A stretch of 64,000 nucleotides of DNA from a virus, in IMG/VR virus record IMGVR_UViG_3300044646_000478, positions 1-64,000 of that record. One strand, 5' to 3'. Made by a program: the position numbers and the translations under genes. Below, piece after piece: positions 2,640-32,239 of this stretch (positions within the stretch are counted from its first letter, which is position 1; every line of letters starts with the position of its first letter). The notes under the pieces were generated by a model. That model was not told where the DNA came from and ran no database searches. It saw only the letters and a program-made list of their open reading frames with translations.

Positions 2640-4277
2640 TTAAGATATTTCTGCTGATGCTGTGTAAGAAAATCCATAAGTATACCCGCTACTGGGTATT
2701 CCACTAGTATTTCCCACAGTATAAAAACCATCATGGGTAATGTTTCCAGCAGTCATTGCATACCCTGAATTTGTATTTGATACATAAACACTTCCAGCAC
2801 TACCACCAAGATATGTACTATTATATAAAACAATTACTGGATCTGTTCTCATTCTCGTTGGAAAAATTGCTCCAGTTCTGGCAACAGTGCCGTTACCAGA
2901 ATTACCATCGGCATAGACCATAGAATCATTTCTCAAAAAATACCTTCTACATAAAGATAGTTCTTGTTTAAACGTTCTTTGTTGAAAAGGAGTTGCTGTT
3001 GGACCTAACTCTAATTGTACCCCGGATAATTGCCAAGTAGCCGCAGCGGTTGCCATAAGGTTTGTTGATCCAGACGGTTGATTATAATTAGCGCTTTCCC
3101 ATGTGTTTATGTTTGAAGTTGTAAATGAAGATCCGTGGCCTAGTGACCAATTAATTATCAATCCACCTGTTGTCGTCTTTTCCCACGTTCCAGTATTGTC
3201 TGCTGTGAAAGTTATAATCTTTCTTTCCCAAGTATTTGCAGCATTAATTGTATAAGAAAAGGTATAGGATCTATTCAATGCGTCATTTTTAAATGAGCCA
3301 CCAAATGTTCCTGTAACGCTGGATTTTACATAGAAAGATAAAGTTACAATTTTATTTGCTGAAGTTCCAAAGCCTAAATCTTGAACATCATATCCTTCAA
3401 TATTCTGCCTTAAAAGATAATAATCGCCTGATGCTAGCGAAGTGTCTTGAGTTGCAACTGTTATTTTGGCTGAGTTTGTAGATATTCCAGCAGGTCCATC
3501 GTTAGTCACACATTGAACATTAGCGTTACCACCGCCGTTTGCATAAAATCTAAATCTGTCGGCAACAAAAACATCTGTTTGAGAATTAGCCGCAGAATTT
3601 CTTCTTCTTTCATCAACAAGCATGGCTCCATTAATAATTTTATTTCTATCGTTCTCAAACCCAGAAATAGGTTCCCATCTATTAGCAGAAGCCCTCCATC
3701 TTAGATTCCACATTGTTCCACTAGTATCATCAATAAGATATCTTACTTCTTGACCATCTATGTTGCCTGTGCTTGGCAATGATGTTACTAATGGGGTTGA
3801 TGCTAATGGAACTATGAATTGAGAGGCTTGGATTATTTTAGATACGCGGAGGAAGGCGGGGGCATAGGCGGGGGAACCTGCCCCACCTGAACCTGCGCGT
3901 ATTTGCTGCGTTGATGAAAGCGACGATACTGCTTTTACCTGATAAGTATGCGAACCAGCAGACGGTGTAAGCCGGTATTGCAAGTGAACTGGAGCGGCGG
4001 TCAGGTCGGATTGCGCTAGGCTTTCTCCCCACGGACTCGCTTTTTGTGTTCCGTCTTCGAACAGGGAAATTGTCAAGTTGTCGCCGCCCAACCAACATCG
4101 GCCTGACGGCGCAAAAAACTCAACAAGAATTGGAGAGCCGTCGCAAACAACCGTAAGCACGCTACTGACGTTAGTAACCGACGTTCCAACGGTTACGCTG
4201 CTCGTAATCTGCGAGTACCCCAACTCCACCAATCCACCACTAGTAGTAACTACTGTATTTTCTGATAATGAAGTCAT
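2640..4277 (-). CDS. Tail fibre protein, paralogue 1 of 3
   Basis: 545 residues. The N-terminal 185 residues share an architecture with the next two genes: MTS-(I/L)-S-(E/D) start, GGLVELGY, a CDGSPILVEF strand, then FLRVSKIIQASQ and a (V/I)TSLPS...GQEVRYL block preceding a W-rich link. The C-terminal ~330 residues differ and resemble a carbohydrate-binding type beta-sandwich, with DRFRFYANGGG, LSFYVKSSVTGTFGGSF and FQQRTFKQELSLCRRYF; this last segment is typical of phage fibre/appendage modules. This suggests a conserved attachment module with an exchangeable receptor-binding domain. The region encoding residues ~15 to 145 is markedly GC-rich compared with the rest. Confidence 0.7.
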   Translation of the reverse strand: MTSLSENTVVTTSGGLVELGYSQITSSVTVGTSVTNVSSVLTVVCDGSPILVEFFAPSGRCWLGGDNLTISLFEDGTQKASPWGESLAQSDLTAAPVHLQYRLTPSAGSHTYQVKAVSSLSSTQQIRAGSGGAGSPAYAPAFLRVSKIIQASQFIVPLASTPLVTSLPSTGNIDGQEVRYLIDDTSGTMWNLRWRASANRWEPISGFENDRNKIINGAMLVDERRRNSAANSQTDVFVADRFRFYANGGGNANVQCVTNDGPAGISTNSAKITVATQDTSLASGDYYLLRQNIEGYDVQDLGFGTSANKIVTLSFYVKSSVTGTFGGSFKNDALNRSYTFSYTINAANTWERKIITFTADNTGTWEKTTTGGLIINWSLGHGSSFTTSNINTWESANYNQPSGSTNLMATAAATWQLSGVQLELGPTATPFQQRTFKQELSLCRRYFLRNDSMVYADGNSGNGTVARTGAIFPTRMRTDPVIVLYNSTYLGGSAGSVYVSNTNSGYAMTAGNITHDGFYTVGNTSGIPSSGYTYGFSYTASAEIS

Positions 4278-15657: not shown

Positions 15658-17568
15658 TTAGTATTTCATTGCGTTAACATCATAATTTTCCTGCAAATGC
15701 TCAGGATTTGGATCATCTTCATCACGATCTATTGGATATTCATGAGCAATATCCGGTTGTGTATTAATTACCCTGCCGGAACCAAAGTCATAAAAGGCTA
15801 TTTGCTGCTCATTCTGAGCGAGCCTTAAAGCATCCATTTCGTTTGGAACAATTCTTACCAAGTCTAGGTACACTAAACCTTTACCATTTTTGGTGTCATT
15901 CCATGATCCGATCTTCACATCTGGATTCTTAGATAAAAATTTTGCATGTTCATTTTTAAATCTTTTCACATCATCTTCATCAAAATGTCTAATATCAATA
16001 GCAGTCCCGTGATCATTCAGTCCGACGCCAAAATCTTCCCCATCGAATCCTGAAAAATCAGAGTTCCAAGTGAAGCCTTGACCCTCTTTAAAAGTCTTAC
16101 TCATTCCAGTATGAAAATCTGGATGCAGCGCGGCAAACTTATTTTTTGATGATATTTTATTTGCATATAGAGTATTCACGATATTCAACAATTCTTGGCG
16201 ATTATTTAAGGAAGGATGTTCAATGACTAAATCCATCAACTTTTTAATTACTTCTCCAACTTGTGGGCCAGCCGATATACCCAATACCTTGATAATATCA
16301 TTTCCATTTATTGCAAGATCTTTTGGAGAAAAAACTGTTTGCGATGCTGTTTCGTTATCAACAAGATTTCTCATTTTGTCAACCATCATTCGTGTTGCTT
16401 GTTCATTTCCCTTACCCATATGATCTGCCTCTCTAAGATTGAGCAGATCGTTAGCAACTTCTGAGGAACCCGAATTATTAAGAAATTTTCTAGCGCCCTT
16501 TGGAGAATTAAAAGTAGGAAACATATGGTTGTTAATTAAATGTTTAACTCTAGAAATTCTATTTGCTGGATATCGCAGTTTTGACAAAATTCCTTCTGCC
16601 ATTTCTGCACCAACTTCATCATGATTAGCACCCTGTCCTTGCTCTCCCTTATAAAAATGTCCGACTCCGTTTTCATCTTCCCACATAGAAGATGGCTTGC
16701 CAATATCGTGCAGCAAAGCCGCCATACGAACATCTGTATCGTTAGTCAAGCCTGAAACGTTTTTCAATACATTCATAAGGTGAGTGCCAAGATCATGTTT
16801 ATGGTAAGGATTTTTCTGATCAAAGCCAAACGTAGTATGCACTTCTGGCAAGAAATGCTTTAGCACACCAGTTTCTTGTCCAAGTTTAATTGCTTCTGAT
16901 GGATAGTTACCTGAAAGTATTTTCTCTAATTCCTGTCCAATAGTTTCCATTGGAGTATTTTTTAAATATGGGCCATGTAGCCTCATTTGCTCTCTTGTCT
17001 CTTCATCAGGCTGAAGACCATGCTTGCTCAATGCAGTTAACGCTCTCATTGTGCGAGAAGAATCATCTCGGAAAGAATTGGGGTGAACAGTTTTTAAAAC
17101 GCCATTTTCAATATCTTTTAGACCGTCAAAGGGGTCAACAACTTTTCCAGTTTTTGCATTAACTGCAATTGCGTTAGCAGTAAAATCTCTTCTCTCTAAA
17201 TCTTTCTCTACTGGAATAGATGAATCTGATTTTATTTGCCAATCTTTGTTACCTTCTCCAGTTTTTACTTCAATTCTAGGCAAAGCAATCTCTACTTCAC
17301 TGCCTCCGTAATTAAATCTATAAACGGGAAATTGTTTGCCTGTTAGGGATAATTTTGCTTTTGGAACGCCTTTCAATACAGATTCTATGGTATCGCCGTT
17401 TACCTTAGCCATTAAATCAATATCTTTAGGCCTTTTACCGAGAACCACATCTCTTGGCGCTCCTCCAACTACATAAACTTCCCCAAAAGGAGAGAGACTG
17501 TCAACCGCCATCTTTGCAGCAGGATCATCATTTACTAATCTTAAAATATTTTCTGATAAATTCATCAA
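15658..17568 (-). CDS. cca: CCA-adding enzyme/poly(A) polymerase-family protein with HD and extra C-terminal domain
   Basis: 636 residues, much longer than the ~400-450 of bacterial CCA enzymes. Residues ~28 to 160 hold the head domain: VYVVGGAPRDVVLGKRPKDI followed by DLMAKV (GGxxRD and DxD), then ERRDFTANAIAVN and DPFDGLKDIENG. The neck follows with RDDSSRTMRALTAL, and an HD phosphohydrolase motif (MAALLHDIGKPS) lies near residue 285. The last ~190 residues (from about KEGQGFTWNSDFSGFDGEDF to the end) form an unrecognised domain. The expected activity is addition of CCA to tRNA 3' ends. None of the window's tRNAs or its tmRNA encodes CCA, so the enzyme has local substrates. ATGA overlap with the upstream nucleotidyltransferase gene suggests joint expression. 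Confidence 0.75.
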   Translation of the reverse strand: MMNLSENILRLVNDDPAAKMAVDSLSPFGEVYVVGGAPRDVVLGKRPKDIDLMAKVNGDTIESVLKGVPKAKLSLTGKQFPVYRFNYGGSEVEIALPRIEVKTGEGNKDWQIKSDSSIPVEKDLERRDFTANAIAVNAKTGKVVDPFDGLKDIENGVLKTVHPNSFRDDSSRTMRALTALSKHGLQPDEETREQMRLHGPYLKNTPMETIGQELEKILSGNYPSEAIKLGQETGVLKHFLPEVHTTFGFDQKNPYHKHDLGTHLMNVLKNVSGLTNDTDVRMAALLHDIGKPSSMWEDENGVGHFYKGEQGQGANHDEVGAEMAEGILSKLRYPANRISRVKHLINNHMFPTFNSPKGARKFLNNSGSSEVANDLLNLREADHMGKGNEQATRMMVDKMRNLVDNETASQTVFSPKDLAINGNDIIKVLGISAGPQVGEVIKKLMDLVIEHPSLNNRQELLNIVNTLYANKISSKNKFAALHPDFHTGMSKTFKEGQGFTWNSDFSGFDGEDFGVGLNDHGTAIDIRHFDEDDVKRFKNEHAKFLSKNPDVKIGSWNDTKNGKGLVYLDLVRIVPNEMDALRLAQNEQQIAFYDFGSGRVINTQPDIAHEYPIDRDEDDPNPEHLQENYDVNAMKY

Positions 17569-21917: not shown

Positions 21918-21922
21918 TTCTT

Positions 21923-21994
21923 TCGGGAGTAGTTCAGCGGTAGAACGAACGGCTGTTAACCGTTATGTCGCAGGTTCGATCCCTGCCTCCCGAG
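21923..21994 (+). tRNA. tRNA-Asn (GTT)
   Basis: Cloverleaf folds with acceptor TCGGGAG/CTCCCGA, anticodon stem AACGG/CCGTT, loop CTGTTAA and T-arm GCAGG-TTCGATC-CCTGC. CCA is not encoded. It is the first RNA gene after the promoter. Confidence 0.93.
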
Positions 21995-21997
21995 TAG

Positions 21998-22068
21998 GCG
22001 GCTATAGTTTAGAGGTAGAACACTGGCCTTCCAAGCCATTAGCGCGGGTTCGATTCCCGCTAGCCGCT
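21998..22068 (+). tRNA. tRNA-Gly (TCC)
   Basis: Acceptor GCGGCTA/TAGCCGC, anticodon loop CTTCCAA (reads GGA), T-arm GCGGG-TTCGATT-CCCGC. The uppermost anticodon-stem pair is mismatched. CCA is not encoded. Confidence 0.9.
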
Positions 22069-22098
22069 TGTAATAAAAACAAAAACAGGAGGTACACT

Positions 22099-22278
22099 TT
22101 GATTAATGAGCGTAAGAAGAACACCAGTCTTGCTAAGGGGCACGCAGAGGTGCTTCACCCTAACAAGTCTGAGCAAGATCGTATGCCTTCGGCAGATCGT
22201 CCCCGAGTTAAGAAAGCCCAGCAGTGGCTTGATTATATGCAGAAGGAGAGACCAAGCGGCATTGGCCTAAACGGTTAA
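22099..22278 (+). CDS. Small basic protein, unknown
   Basis: 59 residues starting at TTG (MINERKKNTSLAKGHAEVLH), six bases after a perfect AGGAGG. A longer frame upstream exists but runs through two tRNA genes and is rejected. The protein is Lys/Arg/Gln-rich (RPRVKKAQQWLDYMQKERPS) with a predicted helix. It lies inside the tRNA cluster between tRNA-Gly and tRNA-Arg. The strong ribosome binding site supports translation. No function can be assigned. Confidence 0.7.
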   Translation: MINERKKNTSLAKGHAEVLHPNKSEQDRMPSADRPRVKKAQQWLDYMQKERPSGIGLNG

Positions 22279-22285
22279 ACTGCTT

Positions 22286-22358
<73 letters not shown>

Positions 22359-22362
22359 TACA

Positions 22363-22437
22363 TGGGCGAGTAACTCAGCGGTTAGAGTGCCTGCTTTACA
22401 CGCAGGAGGTCGGGGGTTCAAATCCCTCCTTGCCCAT
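22363..22437 (+). tRNA. tRNA-Val (TAC)
   Basis: Acceptor TGGGCGA/TTGCCCA, anticodon stem CCTGC/GCAGG with loop TTTACAC (reads GTA). It lies four bases after tRNA-Arg and encodes no CCA. Confidence 0.92.
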
Positions 22438-22450
22438 TAGAGGAAAACTT

Positions 22451-22600
22451 ATGACTAGAAAACAAAAAAAACCAGAAGGTCCATACGAAATAGAAGAGTT
22501 TATAGAACTGTTAGACAATATAGATTCATATTGTGAATGCGAAGCAGAGCATATAGATTTTTGTATATGTAAAAATGGCGAATTTGATGATGAGGAATGA
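22451..22600 (+). CDS. 49-residue acidic Cys-rich peptide
   Basis: MTRKQKKPEGPYEIEEFIEL is followed by a segment with two CxC pairs (YCECEAEHIDFCIC). Four Cys and a His within about 15 residues could bind zinc or another metal. It starts at ATG after GAGGAAAA and is below usual ORF cut-offs. It lies between tRNA-Val and a further tiny frame. The Cys spacing (CxC-x8-CxC) gives some support for a real gene. Confidence 0.5.
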   Translation: MTRKQKKPEGPYEIEEFIELLDNIDSYCECEAEHIDFCICKNGEFDDEE

Positions 22601-22601
22601 T

Positions 22602-22673
22602 ATGAGCGGGCACCCTGAAGAACTTGTAGAACTTTCAGAGGATCTTCCGGGCGGATATTTAGGAGACAAATAG
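22602..22673 (+). CDS. Possible 23-residue peptide
   Basis: MSGHPEELVELSEDLPGGYL and three more residues. The ATG lies one base after the stop of the Cys-rich frame, so it could be translated by re-initiation; GAGGAA lies eight bases upstream. It is short enough to arise by chance, and only coupling supports it. Confidence 0.3.
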   Translation: MSGHPEELVELSEDLPGGYLGDK

Positions 22674-22678
22674 TTTAA

Positions 22679-22762
22679 CGGAGTGTGGTGGAATTGGTAG
22701 ACACAGCAGACTCAAAATCTGCCGGGGGAAACTCCGTGGGGGTTCAAGTCCCTCCACTCCGA
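22679..22762 (+). tRNA. tRNA-Leu (CAA)
   Basis: Class II tRNA with a long variable arm. Acceptor CGGAGTG/CACTCCG, D-arm with GGAATTGGTAGAC, anticodon loop CTCAAAA (reads TTG). CCA is not encoded. Confidence 0.92.
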
Positions 22763-22765
22763 TGC

Positions 22766-22837
22766 TGGCCCATCGTTCAATGGTAAGGACACGACTCTTA
22801 TAAAGTCGCAATCTGGGTTCGATTCCCAGTGGGCCGA
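22766..22837 (+). tRNA. tRNA-Ile (TAT)
   Basis: Acceptor TGGCCCA/TGGGCCG (first pair T-G), anticodon stem CGACT/AGTCG with loop CTTATAA, T-arm CTGGG-TTCGATT-CCCAG. The anticodon reads ATA, a codon that high-GC hosts use rarely. Identity is from the anticodon only. Confidence 0.85.
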
Positions 22838-22838
22838 T

Positions 22839-22954
22839 TCTCATATCATAGATGGTTAGAAAGGGAAGACACAAGCAGTAAAAATAAGCAGTATTCAGAT
22901 ATGAGAGCGTAACCACTCATCTGAGAGTTTGAGATGAGCAGATAAGTTCTAACC
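22839..22954 (+). ncRNA. Candidate pseudoknotted leader upstream of Rpf-like gene
   Basis: Three perfect complementary pairs occupy the 139-base gap between tRNA-Ile and the Rpf-like gene. They are TCTCATATC (22839-22847) with GATATGAGA (22898-22906), GGTTAGAA (22854-22861) with TTCTAACC (22947-22954), and CTCATCT (22916-22922) with AGATGAG (22932-22938). The first and second cross each other, so together they would form an H-type pseudoknot enclosing the third hairpin. I do not match it to a known riboswitch class, including ydaO. It could be a cis-regulatory leader for the secreted enzyme or an independent small RNA. Confidence 0.5.
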
Positions 22955-22976
22955 TAATCCACAACAAAAGGTAAGT

Positions 22977-23498
22977 ATGTTTAAACATATCACAATTGCA
23001 GCGGTGGCAATCGCTTCCGCTATCGGAGTTTCTGGTTCGCTTCAGGCAGCAGATAAAGTAACCAGTGGAGCGGGCGTGCAGATAAAGCATGAAAAAATCT
23101 CTTATGATAAGCGAGTTCCTTGTTATCGTCATGAAGGAAACAATAAGAAGAAGTGTCTTACAGAGTACAAGCAGCAACGTAAGCGCGACTCTCTTAAGTA
23201 TCCTCCCAACCCAACTCGCGCAGATGTTGCAAAGCGAGTCCCCGATTGGCAAGGATTTGTACGCTTAGGGAGATGTGAACAGCCGGGTTATTCTAAGTAT
23301 GGTGACGGTGTAAATTGGTCACATTCTGGACCCACATGGGGTGGTGGTTTAGGCATTTACAGATCCACATGGTTTATGGCTAATTCACCCTACGAACTCT
23401 GGTCTGGAGATAAGTGGGAAACGATTCTTGTGGCTGACTCAATTCGTGATCAAGTAGGTATCACGGCTTGGGGCGCACATGCTTGTTTCTATGGCTAG
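22977..23498 (+). CDS. Secreted Rpf-like transglycosylase
   Basis: 173 residues. The N-terminus MFKHITIAAVAIASAIGVSG continues SLQAADK, a typical signal peptide with a cleavage site after QA (A-x-A-like). The mature C-terminal domain (about residues 88 to 173) resembles the lysozyme-like fold of resuscitation-promoting factors: WQGFVRLGRCEQPG places Glu at the catalytic position, then NWSHSGPTWGGGLGIYRSTW, with two Cys able to pair. The expected activity is cleavage of the glycan of peptidoglycan outside the membrane. The middle part (30 to 85) is basic. A phage could use it to remodel or awaken the wall of its host or to aid release. An unusual leader precedes it. Confidence 0.75.
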   Translation: MFKHITIAAVAIASAIGVSGSLQAADKVTSGAGVQIKHEKISYDKRVPCYRHEGNNKKKCLTEYKQQRKRDSLKYPPNPTRADVAKRVPDWQGFVRLGRCEQPGYSKYGDGVNWSHSGPTWGGGLGIYRSTWFMANSPYELWSGDKWETILVADSIRDQVGITAWGAHACFYG

Positions 23499-23519
23499 GA
23501 AAAGTTAGCATGGTCTAAG

Positions 23520-23547
23520 GCTGTCTTTGCTATACTATAAAGACAGC
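23520..23547 (+). promoter_or_regulatory. Palindrome around a -10-like box before tRNA-Leu(TAA)
   Basis: GCTGTCTTT (23520-23528) and AAAGACAGC (23539-23547) are perfect inverted repeats around a 10-base centre containing TATACT. It abuts the first base of tRNA-Leu. It may be an operator overlapping a promoter or an RNA hairpin that terminates or processes the transcript of the Rpf-like gene. Confidence 0.45.
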
Positions 23548-23629
23548 GGGGATGTGGCGGAATTGGCAGACGCAGAGGACTTAAAATCCTTGGCCTTCGG
23601 GCTTGTGGGTTCGACTCCCACCTTCCCTA
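23548..23629 (+). tRNA. tRNA-Leu (TAA)
   Basis: Class II tRNA; acceptor GGGGATG/CTTCCCT (one T-T mismatch), anticodon loop CTTAAAA (reads TTA), variable arm GGCCTTCGGGCTT, T-arm GTGGG-TTCGACT-CCCAC. CCA is not encoded. Confidence 0.9.
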
Positions 23630-23693
23630 TGAGGTAAAAAATAGTGCAATTTTATTCTTATTTGCGGCAAATAATTACCAAGGATTGGACAAA

Positions 23694-23900
23694 ATGGTTG
23701 AAAATACCGTGAGTGAAGATCAATATCAAAGTCAGTTCGATAACCCAATGGACGAATACGAACGGGCAAAATCAGATTATCTATACATTAGTAGGCATTA
23801 TCCAAATTACTATGCTGTGAGTGGATATATTGAGGCCGAAAACCGCGCTTGGGAAAGATTTGAAAGAGCATATCGCGCTCTACAAGAACTTGACGATTAG
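23694..23900 (+). CDS. Small hypothetical protein
   Basis: 68 residues from ATG at 23694 (MVENTVSEDQYQSQFDNPMD), preferred to a TTG three codons upstream because AAGGA then stands at a normal distance. It is acidic and aromatic (RAKSDYLYISRHYPNYYAVS, EAENRAWERFERAYRALQEL) and predicted helical, with no membrane span. It lies between tRNA-Leu(TAA) and tRNA-Glu. No family was recognised. Confidence 0.6.
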   Translation: MVENTVSEDQYQSQFDNPMDEYERAKSDYLYISRHYPNYYAVSGYIEAENRAWERFERAYRALQELDD

Positions 23901-23934
23901 CCTTACTACTGATAGTCTACAAATATAAGCGCTC

Positions 23935-24006
23935 GGGGCGTTCGTTTAGTGGTTAGGACACCGGGCTTTCATCCCGGCAACGCGGGTTCGATTCCCGCAC
24001 GCCCTA
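23935..24006 (+). tRNA. tRNA-Glu (TTC)
   Basis: Acceptor GGGGCGT/ACGCCCT (first pair G-T), anticodon stem CCGGG/CCCGG with loop CTTTCAT (reads GAA), T-arm GCGGG-TTCGATT-CCCGC. CCA is not encoded. Confidence 0.92.
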
Positions 24007-24025
24007 CTTAATATAAGGAGTAAGA

Positions 24026-24187
24026 ATGGCACGCGCAAAGCATCGTTGGAAGCACGCTCAAAATCAGATGGTTGCTCTTGTTAATAGAGTAGAGAGACAG
24101 CGTAAGCATCAAGAAATGCTTGAAGAGCATCGTAATATTAAGAAGTCAGGTCTTCGGGCTAAGACTCAATCTGAAACAGAAGATTAA
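24026..24187 (+). CDS. 53-residue basic helical protein
   Basis: MARAKHRWKHAQNQMVALVN and RVERQRKHQEMLEEHRNIKK give a highly charged, Lys/Arg/His-rich helix with a short polar tail. AAGGAG lies seven bases before the ATG. It could bind nucleic acid. It lies between tRNA-Glu and tRNA-Gln, with no gap longer than about 20 bases either side. The ribosome binding site and dense packing make it likely to be real. Confidence 0.6.
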   Translation: MARAKHRWKHAQNQMVALVNRVERQRKHQEMLEEHRNIKKSGLRAKTQSETED

Positions 24188-24194
24188 GTTTTAT

Positions 24195-24265
24195 TCCGGG
24201 ATCGTCTAATGGTAGGACAAAGGGCTTTGAACCCTTGAATCTAGGTTCGAATCCTAGTCCCGGAT
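24195..24265 (+). tRNA. tRNA-Gln (TTG)
   Basis: Acceptor TCCGGGA/TCCCGGA, anticodon stem AAGGG/CCCTT with loop CTTTGAA (reads CAA), T-arm CTAGG-TTCGAAT-CCTAG. CCA is not encoded. Confidence 0.92.
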
Positions 24266-24304
24266 TTTATCTTCTTTGCTCCGCATTAAAGAGTGGAGAA
24301 GATA

Positions 24305-24523
24305 ATGAATATATTTTGGGCTTCATGGGTGCTTGCATCTCTCAGCATATTCGGAATGTGGTTTGTTGGCTCATTTAAGATATGGGCTTGGATCTATATG
24401 TGTTGTCTAGAAGTGTGTTGGGCAACCTATGGTATACTTACCAAACAATACGGTTTTATCTTAGGAGCAGTTGGATATATGACTGTCTACCTGATAAACT
24501 TCAATAGATGGAAAAATAAATAA
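24305..24523 (+). CDS. Small membrane protein, three spans
   Basis: 72 residues from ATG at 24305; an upstream GTG is less likely because GGAGA serves the ATG. Three hydrophobic segments are seen: about residues 2 to 20 (IFWASWVLASLSIFGMWFVG), 24 to 44 and 47 to 64, ending FNRWKNK on the positive side. WAWIYMCCLEVCWATYGILT resembles the helix pattern of PnuC-like or SWEET/SemiSWEET-like small transporters, too weakly for assignment. The stop codon abuts the first base of tRNA-Lys. Confidence 0.65.
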   Translation: MNIFWASWVLASLSIFGMWFVGSFKIWAWIYMCCLEVCWATYGILTKQYGFILGAVGYMTVYLINFNRWKNK

Positions 24524-24595
24524 GGCTCTATGGCGTAACGGCAGCGTAGGGGACTTTTAATCCTTCAGGTCTAGGTTCGAATCCTAGTGGAGCCA
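24524..24595 (+). tRNA. tRNA-Lys (TTT)
   Basis: Acceptor GGCTCTA/TGGAGCC, anticodon loop CTTTTAA (reads AAA), T-arm CTAGG-TTCGAAT-CCTAG (identical to tRNA-Gln). CCA is not encoded. It begins right after the stop codon of the membrane protein gene. Confidence 0.9.
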
Positions 24596-24597
24596 CT

Positions 24598-24783: not shown

Positions 24784-25311
24784 TTGAATGCGGCTCTTGA
24801 TAATCGTAATGTAATTGATCATTACAAGTATTGGAATGAAGATGCAATCCGTGCATCGCTTGATATTAAGCGCTTCCCCCTTATTGTGGTGTGTGAGAAT
24901 TTTGATAAGGACTTCAATATTTCAACTGTGGTGCGTAACTGTAATGCTTTTACGGGCAAAGAAATCTGGATCGTAGGAAATAAGCGATGGGACCGACGCG
25001 GCGCTGTGGGCACTCATAACTATGAGCATGTAAAGCACGCAGCAAATGTTGCTGAGGTTGTCCTTCAGTATCCTGATTATCGGGTCGTGGTGTGTGAGGC
25101 TTACCCAGAGGCTAAGGATATCCGCACTTATGACTGGCAGGAAAAGAGTATTCTAGTTCTTGGTCAGGAAAGCATTCGTGTAACCGACGAGACTCTTGCA
25201 ATTGCGAATGATGTTGTGTATATTCCTCAGTATGGAAGCACGCGCTCTCTTAATGTTGGTTGCGCTTCTGCTATTGCAATGTATTCTTATATTCAGAAGT
25301 TTGGAGGTTAA
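24784..25311 (+). CDS. TrmH/SpoU-family RNA 2'-O-methyltransferase
   Basis: 175 residues with all three SPOUT-family motifs: motif 1 FNISTVVRNCNAF, motif 2 SILVLGQES, and motif 3 VYIPQYGSTRSLNVGCASAI followed by AMYSYI, forming the trefoil knot that binds S-adenosylmethionine. It likely methylates ribose 2'-OH on tRNA or rRNA. TTG start eight bases after AAGGAGG. It sits directly downstream of the tRNA array, so phage tRNAs or host rRNA are candidate substrates. It is shorter than host TrmH enzymes and lacks an N-terminal RNA-binding extension. This family is usually dimeric. Confidence 0.85.
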   Translation: MNAALDNRNVIDHYKYWNEDAIRASLDIKRFPLIVVCENFDKDFNISTVVRNCNAFTGKEIWIVGNKRWDRRGAVGTHNYEHVKHAANVAEVVLQYPDYRVVVCEAYPEAKDIRTYDWQEKSILVLGQESIRVTDETLAIANDVVYIPQYGSTRSLNVGCASAIAMYSYIQKFGG

Positions 25312-27774: not shown

Positions 27775-28052
27775 GGGGATGAACTAGTTTCGACCTATAG
27801 AAAAGCCAAACTAATCAGCGGTTAGTCACCTATAACTCCTGCTTGGATAAGTAAATAAAATATAAATGGCAACGTAGAAGAAGTCATTGTTCCAGACACC
27901 TTCCCCGCTGAATGGGTGGAGATGGCTGGAGTAGTCGCCTAGTCTACCACTACTAGGTAACTTGTAGTAACAAACAAAATGTAGTACAATAGGCTGTATA
28001 AGTTAGTTTGAGGGATCTATATGGGACTGCGGGGCAGTACCGCACATCTCCA
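27775..28052 (+). ncRNA. ssrA: tmRNA (divergent T-loop)
   Basis: The 5' end GGGGATGAACTAGTTTCGAC matches the tmRNA start consensus. GGGGATG pairs with CATCTCC at 28045-28051 over seven pairs including G3-U70, the alanine identity element. CCTATAGA (27794-27801) pairs with TCTATATGG (28016-28024) with one bulge, as helix 2. The T-stem TGCGG/CCGCA (28028-28044) is perfect, but its loop is GGCAGTA rather than TTCRANY. The tag frame starts at GGC (27868) after AAATATAAAT, as in Bacillus tmRNA. It encodes 24 residues beginning GNVEEVIVPD and ending VEMAGVVA, then TAG at 27940-27942. CCTAGT/ACTAGG forms a hairpin round the stop. CCA is not encoded. It rescues stalled ribosomes by tagging proteins. 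Length is 278 bases, shorter than bacterial tmRNAs. Confidence 0.85.
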
Positions 28053-28057
28053 TACAT

Positions 28058-28131
28058 CGCGGAGTAGAGAAGTGGCCCATCTCGTCGGCTTCATGCGTCG
28101 AAAATCGCAGGTTCGAATCCTGCCTCCGCTA
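28058..28131 (+). tRNA. tRNA-Met (CAT), initiator-like
   Basis: Acceptor CGCGGAG/CTCCGCT has a C-T mismatch at the 1-72 position, an initiator feature. The anticodon stem TCGGC/GTCGA holds the loop TTCATGC and the T-arm is GCAGG-TTCGAAT-CCTGC. It lacks the three G-C pairs usual in initiators, so the initiator role is uncertain. It starts five bases after the tmRNA; CCA is not encoded. Confidence 0.82.
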
Positions 28132-28164
28132 TTATGTTACATATCAACTCACATATTGAAATTA

Positions 28165-28197
28165 AGAAGGCCCGCCAAAAGCGGGCCTTTCTTTTTG
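28165..28197 (+). terminator. Rho-independent terminator
   Basis: GGCCCGC (28169-28175), loop CAAAA, GCGGGCC (28181-28187), then TTTCTTTTTG. It closes the tRNA/tmRNA transcription unit. It is the strongest terminator in the window. Confidence 0.92.
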
Positions 28198-28996: not shown

Positions 28997-29911
28997 TTAT
29001 GAACTTACATAGTTTGAAGTATATATTTGACCTGTCTGTGGAGAGGAGACAGCCCTTGATCCTGCTACTAATTTACCCCCATCTGCTGATGAGGCTACTC
29101 CATACCATTGCCTAATAGATTCTCTAACAGTCCACGTTACTCCTGAGTCTGTTGAAGTGTAGATTCGACCTCCATTTACACCTGCTACAAGTTTTGTTCC
29201 ATCTGAGGATGAGGCAACTGATTGCCAATTTCTAACAGAATCTCTAGGAATCCACGTTACTCCTGAGTCTGTTGAAGTGTAGATTTGACCCCCAAACACA
29301 ACTGCTACAAGTTTTGTTCCATCTGAGGATGAGGCAACTGCCCACCAACCCCTAGCAGAGTCTCTAGCAGTCCACGAAACTCCTGAGTTTGTTGAAGTGT
29401 AGATTTGACCCTCATACACAACTGCTACAAGTTTTGTTCCATCCGAGGATGAGGCAACTGATTGCCAATCCCTACCAGAGTCTCTAGCAGTCCACGAAAG
29501 TCCTGAGTTTGTTGAAGTGTAGATTTGACCTCCTATTACACCTGCAACAAGTTTTGTTCCATCTGCTGAAGAGGCTACTCCCCGCCAATCCCTAATAGAT
29601 TCTCTAGCGGTCCAGTTAACCCCTGAATCTGTTGAGGTGTAGATTTGACCGCTTTCAACAACTGCTACTAATTTTGTTCCATCTGAGGAAGAGGCTACTG
29701 ACGACCAATTTCTATTTGAATCTCTAGCAGTCCACGTTACTCCAGAATCTGTAGAAGTATATATAAAACCACTCTGTACTACTGCTACTAATTTTGTTCC
29801 ATCTGAGGAAGAGGCTACTGACGACCAATTTCTATTTGAATCTCTAGCAGTCCAAGTCAATCCAATTCTTTTCATTTTATTAGCATTAGAGATGTTACCA
29901 ATATTAAGCAT
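28997..29911 (-). CDS. Seven-bladed beta-propeller tail-fibre tip protein
   Basis: 304 residues from the ATG in a TAATG overlap (MLNIGNISNANKMKRIGLTW). Seven near-identical 40-residue repeats follow: WTARDSNRNW, then SVASSSDGTKLVAVV, then GQIYTSTDSGV. The repeat count and the DGTKLVA/IYTSTDSG signature match BNR/Ycf48-like propeller blades, so one full seven-bladed ring is expected. Only a short N-terminal segment precedes the ring. It is probably a receptor-binding or carbohydrate-binding tip. It follows a gene carrying an analogous inserted propeller. Near-identical DNA repeats (120 bases each) make it prone to recombination. Confidence 0.75.
   Translation of the reverse strand: MLNIGNISNANKMKRIGLTWTARDSNRNWSSVASSSDGTKLVAVVQSGFIYTSTDSGVTWTARDSNRNWSSVASSSDGTKLVAVVESGQIYTSTDSGVNWTARESIRDWRGVASSADGTKLVAGVIGGQIYTSTNSGLSWTARDSGRDWQSVASSSDGTKLVAVVYEGQIYTSTNSGVSWTARDSARGWWAVASSSDGTKLVAVVFGGQIYTSTDSGVTWIPRDSVRNWQSVASSSDGTKLVAGVNGGRIYTSTDSGVTWTVRESIRQWYGVASSADGGKLVAGSRAVSSPQTGQIYTSNYVSS
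29000..29870 (-). repeat. Seven tandem 120-base repeats (propeller 2)
   Basis: The + strand shows a 120-base period seven times, with units such as TACAAGTTTTGTTCCATCTG recurring in step, encoding the blades of the fibre-tip protein. Units differ mainly at the codons for the two or three variable residues before VASS and before the G-x-IYTS strand. Confidence 0.85.
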
Positions 29912-30435
29912 TAAGCCAAGTCTCCTGTTAATAACCATTCATTATTATCTAATTTAATAATTGTTGCAACTGAATATTGAGTTCTTAAAGACGCGCTAGG
30001 AGTTGAATTTAAAGTAACCGTTCCATTAACAATGGCAGATGACATTCCACTTATGGTAATTTGACCAATGCCAAGTTGAGCAATATGAACAGATTCTCCA
30101 ATTGCAAAAGTCCCTCCAGTAGTTACTGGATCGGCAGGAATAATAACAGTTCCCGCTGTTCCTCCATTGATAAGCAAAAAACTTTTAGCATCTGAATATG
30201 AAATTTTATAGGTTGTGCCAGCGACAGAAGTGCCCAAATTATTTATTGGAGTAAGAGTTAGATCTTCTATAGTAGAATTAACCGTATTGAATGAAGATGT
30301 TACACTGTTAAAGGAAGCATCAGCCACAGTTCCTTGAGTGTAAATGTGAGTAGTATTATCTCTAACGTTAATATTCCAGAATTCTGGAGTCATCTTGGTT
30401 CCAGTTACTGCTGTTGCTGGTGTTGTGTAAGCCAT
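29911..30435 (-). CDS. Tail fibre connector protein
   Basis: 174 residues from the ATG overlapping the upstream stop (MAYTTPATAVTGTKMTPEFW). The first ~35 residues (TPATAVTG...WNINVRDN) are shared with the two preceding genes and probably attach the fibre to the baseplate. The C-terminal part (IAQLGIGQITISG to LLTGDLA) is the same short beta module that ends its siblings. It separates two propeller-bearing proteins. Function is inferred from paralogy. Confidence 0.65.
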   Translation of the reverse strand: MAYTTPATAVTGTKMTPEFWNINVRDNTTHIYTQGTVADASFNSVTSSFNTVNSTIEDLTLTPINNLGTSVAGTTYKISYSDAKSFLLINGGTAGTVIIPADPVTTGGTFAIGESVHIAQLGIGQITISGMSSAIVNGTVTLNSTPSASLRTQYSVATIIKLDNNEWLLTGDLA

Positions 30436-31766
30436 TATGCTAAGTCTCCAAATAGTAGCCAATTCTCATTATCTATTTTCAATACTGATGCCGCTGAATA
30501 TTGAGTTCTTAATTTATTAGAGGGGGTAGTAAATAATGAATCTGTAAAGGTATAAATTTGACCGTTATTGACAACTGCTACAAGTTTAGTTCCGTCAGAG
30601 GAGGAGGCTACTGACCTCCAGTTTCTATTAGATTCTCTTGCAATCCAGTTCACCCCTGAGTCTGTTGAAGTGTAGATTTGACTTCCAAAGCCACCTGCTA
30701 CCAATTTAGTTCCATCTGAGGAGGAGGCTACTGAAATCCAACTCCGATTAGAATCTCTAGCGGTCCAGTTAACCCCTGAATCTGTTGAGGTGTAGATTCG
30801 ACCCCCAAGCACAACTGCAACCAATTTAGTTCCATCTGCTGAGGAGGCTACTCCATACCAATCCCGATTAGAATCTCTAGCGGTCCAGTTAACCCCTGAA
30901 TCTGTTGAGGTGTAGATTTGACCGGTTTCAACAACTGCTACAAGTTTTGTTCCGTCTGAGGAGGAGGCTACTGACAACCAATCCCGATTAGAATTTCTTG
31001 CAGTCCAACTAACTCCTGAGTTTGTTGAAGTGTAGATTTGACCCCCATACACAACTGCAACCAATTTAGTTCCATCTGCTGAGGAGGCAACTGCCCACCA
31101 ATTCCTATTAGAATCCCTTGCAGTCCAATTCACTCCTGAATCTGTTGAAGTGTATATATGACCTCCATTATCAACCGCTACAAGTTTGGTTCCATCTGAT
31201 GATGAGGCAACTGACAACCAATTTCTACTAGATTCTCTAGGGGTCCAATTAACTCCTGAATCTGTTGAGGTGTATATTTGATCTACAACAAGACCGCTAG
31301 GGCCAGCCGAAGGCCCACCACCAACCGCAACAAGTTTTGTTCCGTCTGATGAAGAGGCTACCGAATACCAATCTCTACCAGATTCTCTAGGAGTCCAGTT
31401 ATTATAATTACTAGAAAATAAAACTGTTCCCGATCCTGTTTGAACAAAATCTACTTTTGTTCCTATAGGAACTGCTGTTCCTACGCTTATTAACACAGTC
31501 CCACTATTCGGGTTTACTTGATATATTTTATTTAAATCAGAACTAATAACAGTATAGTTAGATGTAATTGTTCCAATAGGTGAATAAATTATATTATTAA
31601 TATAATTTTGAGAAGTAGAAATAGAGCCAGATAGGGCACTACTTGACGCGATGCGAGCCGTTCTTTGAGAATCTAAGTAAGACAAGTTATCTCTTACATT
31701 GCTGTTCCATAGTGCAGAAGTAATAACCGAACCCTCTACGGCAGTTGATGGAGTTATAAAAGGCAT
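30435..31766 (-). CDS. Tail fibre protein with inserted seven-repeat propeller
   Basis: 443 residues from the ATG in a TAATG overlap (MPFITPSTAVEGSVITSALW). The N-terminal ~135 residues and the C-terminal ~35 (LRTQYSAASVLKIDNENWLL) align with the 157-residue neighbour encoded at 31766-32239. Between GTVLFSS and LRTQ, seven 40-residue BNR/Ycf48-like blades are inserted, the first carrying a small extra loop (GGPSAGPSGLVV). It is a receptor-binding tip by inference. The shared ends show that the propeller was inserted into, or lost from, a common module. Confidence 0.75.
   Translation of the reverse strand: MPFITPSTAVEGSVITSALWNSNVRDNLSYLDSQRTARIASSSALSGSISTSQNYINNIIYSPIGTITSNYTVISSDLNKIYQVNPNSGTVLISVGTAVPIGTKVDFVQTGSGTVLFSSNYNNWTPRESGRDWYSVASSSDGTKLVAVGGGPSAGPSGLVVDQIYTSTDSGVNWTPRESSRNWLSVASSSDGTKLVAVDNGGHIYTSTDSGVNWTARDSNRNWWAVASSADGTKLVAVVYGGQIYTSTNSGVSWTARNSNRDWLSVASSSDGTKLVAVVETGQIYTSTDSGVNWTARDSNRDWYGVASSADGTKLVAVVLGGRIYTSTDSGVNWTARDSNRSWISVASSSDGTKLVAGGFGSQIYTSTDSGVNWIARESNRNWRSVASSSDGTKLVAVVNNGQIYTFTDSLFTTPSNKLRTQYSAASVLKIDNENWLLFGDLA
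30540..31400 (-). repeat. Seven tandem ~120-base repeats (propeller 1)
   Basis: The same blade unit as in the downstream gene is repeated seven times inside the fibre gene, with one unit lengthened by about 30 bases near 31290-31320. Blocks of identity are shared with the second array. Confidence 0.85.
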
Positions 31767-32239
31767 TATGCTAAGTCTCCTGTAAGTAGCCAATCTGTAT
31801 TACTTAATTTAATAATAGACGCAGCAGAATGTTGAGTTCTTAATTGAGCAGAAGGAGTTGAATTTAAATTAGCCACTCCATCATCACTAAATAAAACAGT
31901 TCCAGATCCGGTTTGAACAAAATCTACTTTCGCTCCTATGGGGAATGCGGTTCCAACACTTACCGTTATTGTTCCACCGCTAGGATTTACTTTATAAAAT
32001 TTATGCATATCAGCAGTTCCAATCGTATGGTTAGCAACAATAGTACCCATAGTTTGTGGATAGACGATACTTACACTACCAGAAAGAGTTGCAATGGGAC
32101 CAGAAAAACTTGATATGCTTGATTGATAGTTAATTAATTGAGTATTTAAGTAAGAAATATTATCTCTGACTTGAGAGTTCCATTGGCTTGGAGGCAAGAC
32201 GCTTCCAGACAAAACTGTTGATGGTGTAGTAAAACTCAT
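31766..32239 (-). CDS. Tail fibre base protein (parent module)
   Basis: 157 residues (MSFTTPSTVLSGSVLPPSQW). N-terminal TPSTVLSG...WNSQVRDNISYL marks the family attachment segment. A central strand region (DMHKFYKVNPSGGTITVSVG, then AKVDFVQTGSGTVLF) and a C-terminal module (LRTQHSAASIIKLSNTDWLL) follow directly without a propeller. It overlaps the upstream 1027-residue gene by one base (TAATG). It looks like the ancestral version of the next protein. It probably forms or caps a fibre. Confidence 0.68.
   Translation of the reverse strand: MSFTTPSTVLSGSVLPPSQWNSQVRDNISYLNTQLINYQSSISSFSGPIATLSGSVSIVYPQTMGTIVANHTIGTADMHKFYKVNPSGGTITVSVGTAFPIGAKVDFVQTGSGTVLFSDDGVANLNSTPSAQLRTQHSAASIIKLSNTDWLLTGDLA

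Follow-up and report, generated by a model that had tools for sequence, protein, structure and literature searches.

A one-piece phage tmRNA with a GGCAGTA T-loop, a probable alternative elbow and a long acidic tag

tmRNA frees ribosomes that have become stuck and tags their unfinished proteins. In the window analysed here, a 64,000-nucleotide stretch of an 89,606-base virus record, a preliminary description had proposed a complete tmRNA of 278 bases with a T-loop that departs from TTCRANY and was thought to lack the bases for docking with the D-loop. The locus thus raises the question of whether an RNA with such a loop is a working tmRNA and, if so, what has become of its elbow.

The elements read from the sequence are collected in Table 1. 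They comprise an acceptor stem with G3-U70, a T-arm, helix 2, an A-rich block, a resume codon, a tag frame and a stop codon within a hairpin, and the D-loop segment closes with TTTCGAC, the UUCGAC end being expected of a tmRNA. The acceptor stem has 7 bp (GGGGATG/CATCTCC), and its G3-U70 is the alanine identity pair. From its pairing (27775-27781 with 28045-28051) and the discriminator A at 28052, the mature RNA would span 278 nt without CCA, which is absent from the encoded 3' end, where TAC comes next. The T-stem has 5 bp (28028-32/28040-44) and encloses the 7-nt loop GGCAGTA (28033-39), so the reported departure from TTCRANY is real. The gene order is that of a one-piece tmRNA, not of the circularly permuted RF01849 type. 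When the whole RNA was folded thermodynamically, the inner structures differed between the window tmRNA and its relative in contig G002, and the folding was left out of the structural case.

Table 1. Features of the tmRNA locus and its surroundings (window coordinates).
Feature	Position	Strand	Evidence or remark
One-piece phage tmRNA gene, mature RNA without CCA	27775..28052	+	Sequence, RF00023 alignment, relatives, compensatory changes
Acceptor stem, 5' strand GGGGATG; G3 at 27777	27775..27781	+	
Acceptor stem, 3' strand CATCTCC (28045-28051) and discriminator A (28052); U70 at 28049	28045..28052	+	
D-loop segment AACTAGTTTCGAC; position 18 equivalent A (27786), position 19 G (27787)	27782..27794	+	Sequence; co-switch with T-loop
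T-arm TGCGG-GGCAGTA-CCGCA	28028..28044	+	Sequence; two stem pairs double-changed in relatives
Helix 2, 5' side	27796..27819	+	Two pairs double-changed in relatives
Helix 2, 3' side	27993..28021	+	Pairing with 5' side, relatives compared
Conserved block AAAATATAAAT ahead of resume codon	27857..27867	+	Sequence, RF00023 alignment, relatives
Tag reading frame GNVEEVIVPDTFPAEWVEMAGVVA and TAG	27868..27942	+	Conserved as protein in relatives
Hairpin around tag stop codon	27938..27957	+	Two pairs double-changed in relatives
tRNA-Met(CAU), 4-5 nt 3' of tmRNA	28057..28132	+	ARAGORN; also follows tmRNA in G002 and L412
Intrinsic terminator-like hairpin closing the tmRNA/tRNA-Met unit	28166..28190	+	Two found, one per strand at same palindrome; 0.6 expected
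Cluster of ten tRNA genes upstream of tmRNA	21922..24596	+	Same order in G002
tRNA nucleotidyltransferase (CCA-adding) protein	15658..17568	-	phrog_2244, E 3.7e-65

Recognition by RF00023 and ARAGORN, which had been proposed as a check, was obtained only in part. In a 501-nt scan RF00023 aligned positions 27775-28055 over model positions 1-374, i.e. over the full length, with 37.7 bits (E 1.2e-13), but this is below the gathering score of 47 bits, which is a detection limit rather than a structural definition; the gene is therefore absent from the default Rfam scan of the window. The alignment has large deletions at the pseudoknot region. Four pseudoknots are a common trait, and pseudoknots are reduced in several tmRNA lineages. 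The low score probably results from the short gene and its reduced pseudoknots. When the whole record was scanned with RF00023, the matches listed were all tRNAs or pieces of tRNA size, with 14-19.5 bits. ARAGORN did not call the tmRNA in the window and reported here only the tRNA-Met at 28057-28132. The short length, the score under the cut-off and the unusual T-loop could be taken as signs of a decaying copy or pseudogene acquired from a host, a reading on which the comparison with related phages bears directly.

A search with the tail-sheath protein led to three related contigs, and a scan with the tag peptide to six more, one identical tmRNA being present in all six. In contig G002 (129,640 bases; locus L247), one of the three obtained with the tail sheath, the tmRNA and tRNA-Met are 82% identical to those of the window, and the close group comprises three distinct tmRNA sequences, those of the window, G002 and L412. 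Megablast with the region gave no match among named phages, nor were relatives found through the flanking glycosyltransferase-like gene. A weak match in G003 was rejected as a relative, being a different sequence without tmRNA features; that record had no match to the neighbouring reductase, and hence is uninformative on the presence of a tmRNA there. Over 36 named pairs in the three distinct tmRNAs, 98.1% of cells were paired and six pairs showed double-sided changes, two each in the T-stem, helix 2 and the stop hairpin, while slid controls were 25.9-39% paired with 0 double-sided pairs. In the relatives one helix-2 pair, 27 with 242, no longer forms; the change of the stop from TAG to TAA between relatives is compensated in the stop hairpin. 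The covariation that the preliminary description had looked to as evidence is thus present, and the tmRNA is not a chance resemblance. Together with the full-length alignment, this bears out its proposal of a complete 278-base tmRNA with the 5' end, G3-U70 acceptor stem, helix 2, stop hairpin and block ahead of the resume codon.

The tag of the window tmRNA has 24 codons, with GGC rather than GCA as resume codon (27868-70) and TAG as stop (27940-42), and contains 5 acidic and 0 basic residues. The tags of G002 (GNLNEVIVPDTFPASWIEEFAGVAA) and L412 (GNLNEVIVPDTFPASWVEEFAGVAA) are of the same kind, with 4-5 acidic and 0 basic residues across the three, and an in-frame indel separates members of the group. 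Between G002 and L412, 5 of the 6 changed codons are synonymous (24% expected for random changes, p 0.0035); when the window is compared with either relative, the bias is weaker (5 synonymous and 6 replacing changes in one case, 6 and 5 in the other). Judged from these codons, the in-frame indel and the stop change matched in the hairpin, the tag is conserved as protein among relatives. Such conservation and the compensatory changes argue against a pseudogene, as does the fact that this T-loop type is the norm in Alphaproteobacteria, and we regard decay as extremely improbable. The long, acidic tag with a Gly start and a VVA end was described correctly, although VVA is a local variant: in the close relatives the tag ends in VAA. 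The tag of L100 (GNVLDKMATIGLIRENASVVA) likewise has the Gly start and the VVA end.

A second alternative is that the RNA is a decoy: by tying up SmpB or AlaRS of the host it would inhibit the host's own trans-translation, as reported for phage DS6A, whose tag-less form consists of little beyond the tRNA-like domain and has no tag frame, unlike the window tmRNA with its conserved 24-codon tag. The DS6A tmRNA, restricted to that domain, has been reported to inhibit the endogenous tmRNA (PMC11915505, PMC4131195), and SmpB had no match in the five phage records searched, which are possibly fragments, while most control genomes were positive; a decoy would fit with this, and by the same token host SmpB is presumed to serve the phage tmRNA. 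However, a decoy needs no intact tag frame, yet here the protein sequence of the tag is maintained: its indel leaves the frame intact, a stop codon closes the frame, and changes in the hairpin around that stop are compensated. This conservation disfavours a pure decoy, which we consider quite improbable.

The interval is therefore best explained, with high probability on the sequence evidence, as encoding a working tmRNA, in one piece, of a phage with a contractile tail; its role would most likely be ordinary trans-translation, with SmpB supplied by the host and a tag specific to the phage. The tmRNA would be transcribed together with tRNA-Met, receive its CCA end from a host or phage enzyme and be charged with alanine through G3-U70. 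Host SmpB and EF-Tu would then carry the charged tmRNA to stalled ribosomes, where the acidic 24-residue tag would be added and the ribosome freed, with the elbow working in an alternative form that most likely keeps docking. Charging, the use of SmpB and proteolysis of the tagged proteins are what such a tmRNA would be expected to entail. As a refinement of the functional tmRNA rather than a competing explanation, its tag might redirect proteins to another protease or spare them. The tag sequence is conserved, and acidic tags of 24-28 residues recur in the window phage and in Bxz1-type and Phrappuccino-type mycobacteriophages, but the residues at the VVA or VAA ends are small and hydrophobic, as in ordinary degrons, and other phage tmRNAs with the same T-loop bear ordinary tags such as ANDSSYSSYALAA; this refinement is possible, though doubtful.

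The gene neighbourhood is in line with the proposed processing. The downstream tRNA-Met had been placed in the same transcript, and the spacing of 4-5 nt, the terminator-like hairpin that follows and the conservation of this arrangement in relatives agree with that. The tRNA-Met itself has a C1/U72 mismatch, kept in G002 and L412. The CCA-adding enzyme encoded by the phage fits with the missing CCA and could, in principle, complete the 3' end. A SpoU-family RNA methylase gene lies near the tRNA cluster (24784-25311, plus strand). On the other side of the tmRNA, at 28997-31793 on the minus strand, three neighbouring ORFs overlap by 27-28 bases, two of them with weak matches to Asp-box-like repeats, and similar direct repeats are found at 2740-3364 of the G002 locus; the three ORFs are possibly one repetitive tail gene split up. 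The gene content of the phage includes a contractile tail, ribonucleotide reductase, the CCA-adding enzyme and the tRNA cluster. By tail sheath, the named phages closest to it are actinobacteriophages such as Phrappuccino, Rhodococcus E3 and Bxz1-types (approximately 31-37% identity over part of the protein), and this kinship points to a likely actinobacterial host.

The idea that the T-loop is unique to this phage had to be rejected. With a pattern in which stem positions were left free (GAC N5 GGCAGTA N5 CANCTCCA), 238 loci were found among the matches listed. They come from contigs of viruses, L006 being one, and from genome contigs; in each the T-stem is completely paired if G-U counts as a pair. 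The loci belong to SAR11 and other Alphaproteobacteria, Saccharibacteria and phages. The T-loop of the Rfam alpha_tmRNA consensus (RF01849) reads GGCgGUA, with GGCRGNN as class consensus, and in a sample of Alphaproteobacteria, where 35 of the 37 loci fetched could be parsed, all 35 had GGCRG loops and the swapped elbow described below. A 2005 modelling paper (PMC1168896) mentions a mitochondrial tmRNA with two Gs at this place in the T-loop and, for Caulobacter, one G. GGCAGTA is a widespread natural variant.

What this variant means for the elbow is indicated by the D-loop. Position 18 was left free in a search that required G at position 19, the constancy of G19 being there by construction, and among the matches listed A18-G19 was found in 196 of 196 GGCAGTA tmRNAs (82 distinct) and G18-G19 in 26 of 26 TTCRANT tmRNAs (19 distinct), as raw counts that ignore kinship and in a tRNA-position numbering of our own assignment. 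A sample of Patescibacteria was drawn through RF00023 regardless of loop, 26 loci being missed by regex parsing. It contained three elbow types (TTC/TTT with GG, TGCRA with AG, and GGCRG with AG), and the association between D- and T-loops gave a Fisher p of 2.9e-16 on raw machine labels, with kinship ignored and 'none' rows left out. In a few TTC rows the label AG or none is an artefact of parsing, the D-loops reading GG on inspection (L423, L432, L488, L491). In these sequences the TGC type separates two couplings, of 55 with 18 and of 54 with 58, and C56 is constant across the main elbow types. In four loci (L503, L517, L536, L539), T-loops TTCAC, TTCAT or CTCAC accompany a D-loop UG or CG, possibly a fourth elbow type or else a parsing error.

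The two elbows also occur in homologous phage tmRNAs. Those of Bxz1-type phages and Phrappuccino are homologous by DNA (Phrappuccino versus Nappy, 67.6% over 94%), and they differ in the elbow, G18 with TTCGAGT in Ava3 versus A18 with GGCAGTG in Phrappuccino, which implies at least one co-switch within the phage lineage. Loss of D-loop docking, as claimed in the preliminary description, was thus rejected: C56 is kept, and the change of U55 to G goes with that of G18 to A in essentially every tmRNA of the class. Most likely, to judge from this covariation, the elbow is swapped, with A18 and G55 in place of G18 and U55, G54/G58 in place of U54/A58 and G19-C56 kept, so that docking would be preserved in altered chemistry. 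It is established knowledge of the tRNA elbow that leads us to read 18/55 as a probable physical contact. Lacking U54 and U55, the loop should be unable to carry the usual m5U and pseudouridine. No statement of the 18/55 co-switch was found in the literature searched, the scope of which left aside the primary papers on two-piece tmRNA, and priority is not claimed; phage tmRNAs, loops other than TTC and long tags had each been described before.

Among known tmRNAs, those of Bxz1-type mycobacteriophages of the genus Bixzunavirus, such as Ava3 (JQ911768; tail sheath with partial homology to that of the window phage, 31.4% identity over 64% of the protein), are likewise one-piece, lie in a tRNA-rich region and have a long acidic tag (ATDTDATVTDAEIEAFFAEEAAALV), but they have a canonical elbow (TTCGAGT with D-loop GG) and 435 nt and are found and annotated by ARAGORN. 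The tmRNA of Phrappuccino (NC_054727, 8127-8534) shares with that of the window the one-piece form, the D-loop AG (CTAG), an acidic tag (28 residues) and the failure of ARAGORN to detect it, its T-loop being GGCAGTG; it differs in its 408 nt, RF00023 score of 66.8 bits and resume codon GCC, and in a DNA search of named phages the window tmRNA did not match it, the matches shown there being to tRNA-Met. GenBank leaves this Phrappuccino tmRNA unannotated, hypothetical genes 9 and 10 overlapping it. This tmRNA (L271, 1501-1908) is identical in Settecandela (MT114163), and its tag is ADNNDALVSDADFAEIEAFANDSALVSA. The permuted alphaproteobacterial tmRNAs (RF01849) have the T-loop GGCRGUA and the D-loop AG, as in the window, but are two-piece and circularly permuted, the acceptor piece preceding the coding piece, and their tags are short with an Ala start (ANDNRVALAAVA, ANNKFALAA), in contrast to the long, Gly-start tag of the window. 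Saccharibacteria tmRNAs are one-piece with GGCAGTA and D-loop AG, but chromosomal and longer (376-398 nt in the three extracted), with tags that start with AN and end in AA or FA.

In the genomes tried, ARAGORN found the permuted GGCAGTA tmRNAs (L128, L185) and missed the one-piece ones of Saccharibacteria (L155, L194, L234), and one-piece tmRNAs with a swapped elbow were missed in all cases tried. ARAGORN is also the program behind a published survey of phage tmRNAs (PMC9004378), so phage and Saccharibacteria tmRNAs have probably been under-counted.

The elbow rule is the point of interest here, the window gene itself joining the known phage tmRNAs. With the co-switch of 18 and 55, a loop that looks broken becomes evidence for a preserved elbow contact, and the rule predicts which elbow double mutants should work. 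A broader and improbable proposal would be that tmRNA elbow chemistries (G18/U55 and A18/G55; U54/A58 and G54/G58) are interchangeable under strict co-variation, and that phages bring the swapped form into hosts with a presumably canonical tmRNA, which would spare the phage RNA modification to m5U54 and pseudouridine-55 and perhaps also recognition by enzymes or defences of the host that depend on the canonical T-loop. An isolated mycobacteriophage, Phrappuccino, holds a swapped-elbow tmRNA that GenBank does not annotate, and the long acidic tags of these phages constitute a testable set of natural degrons.
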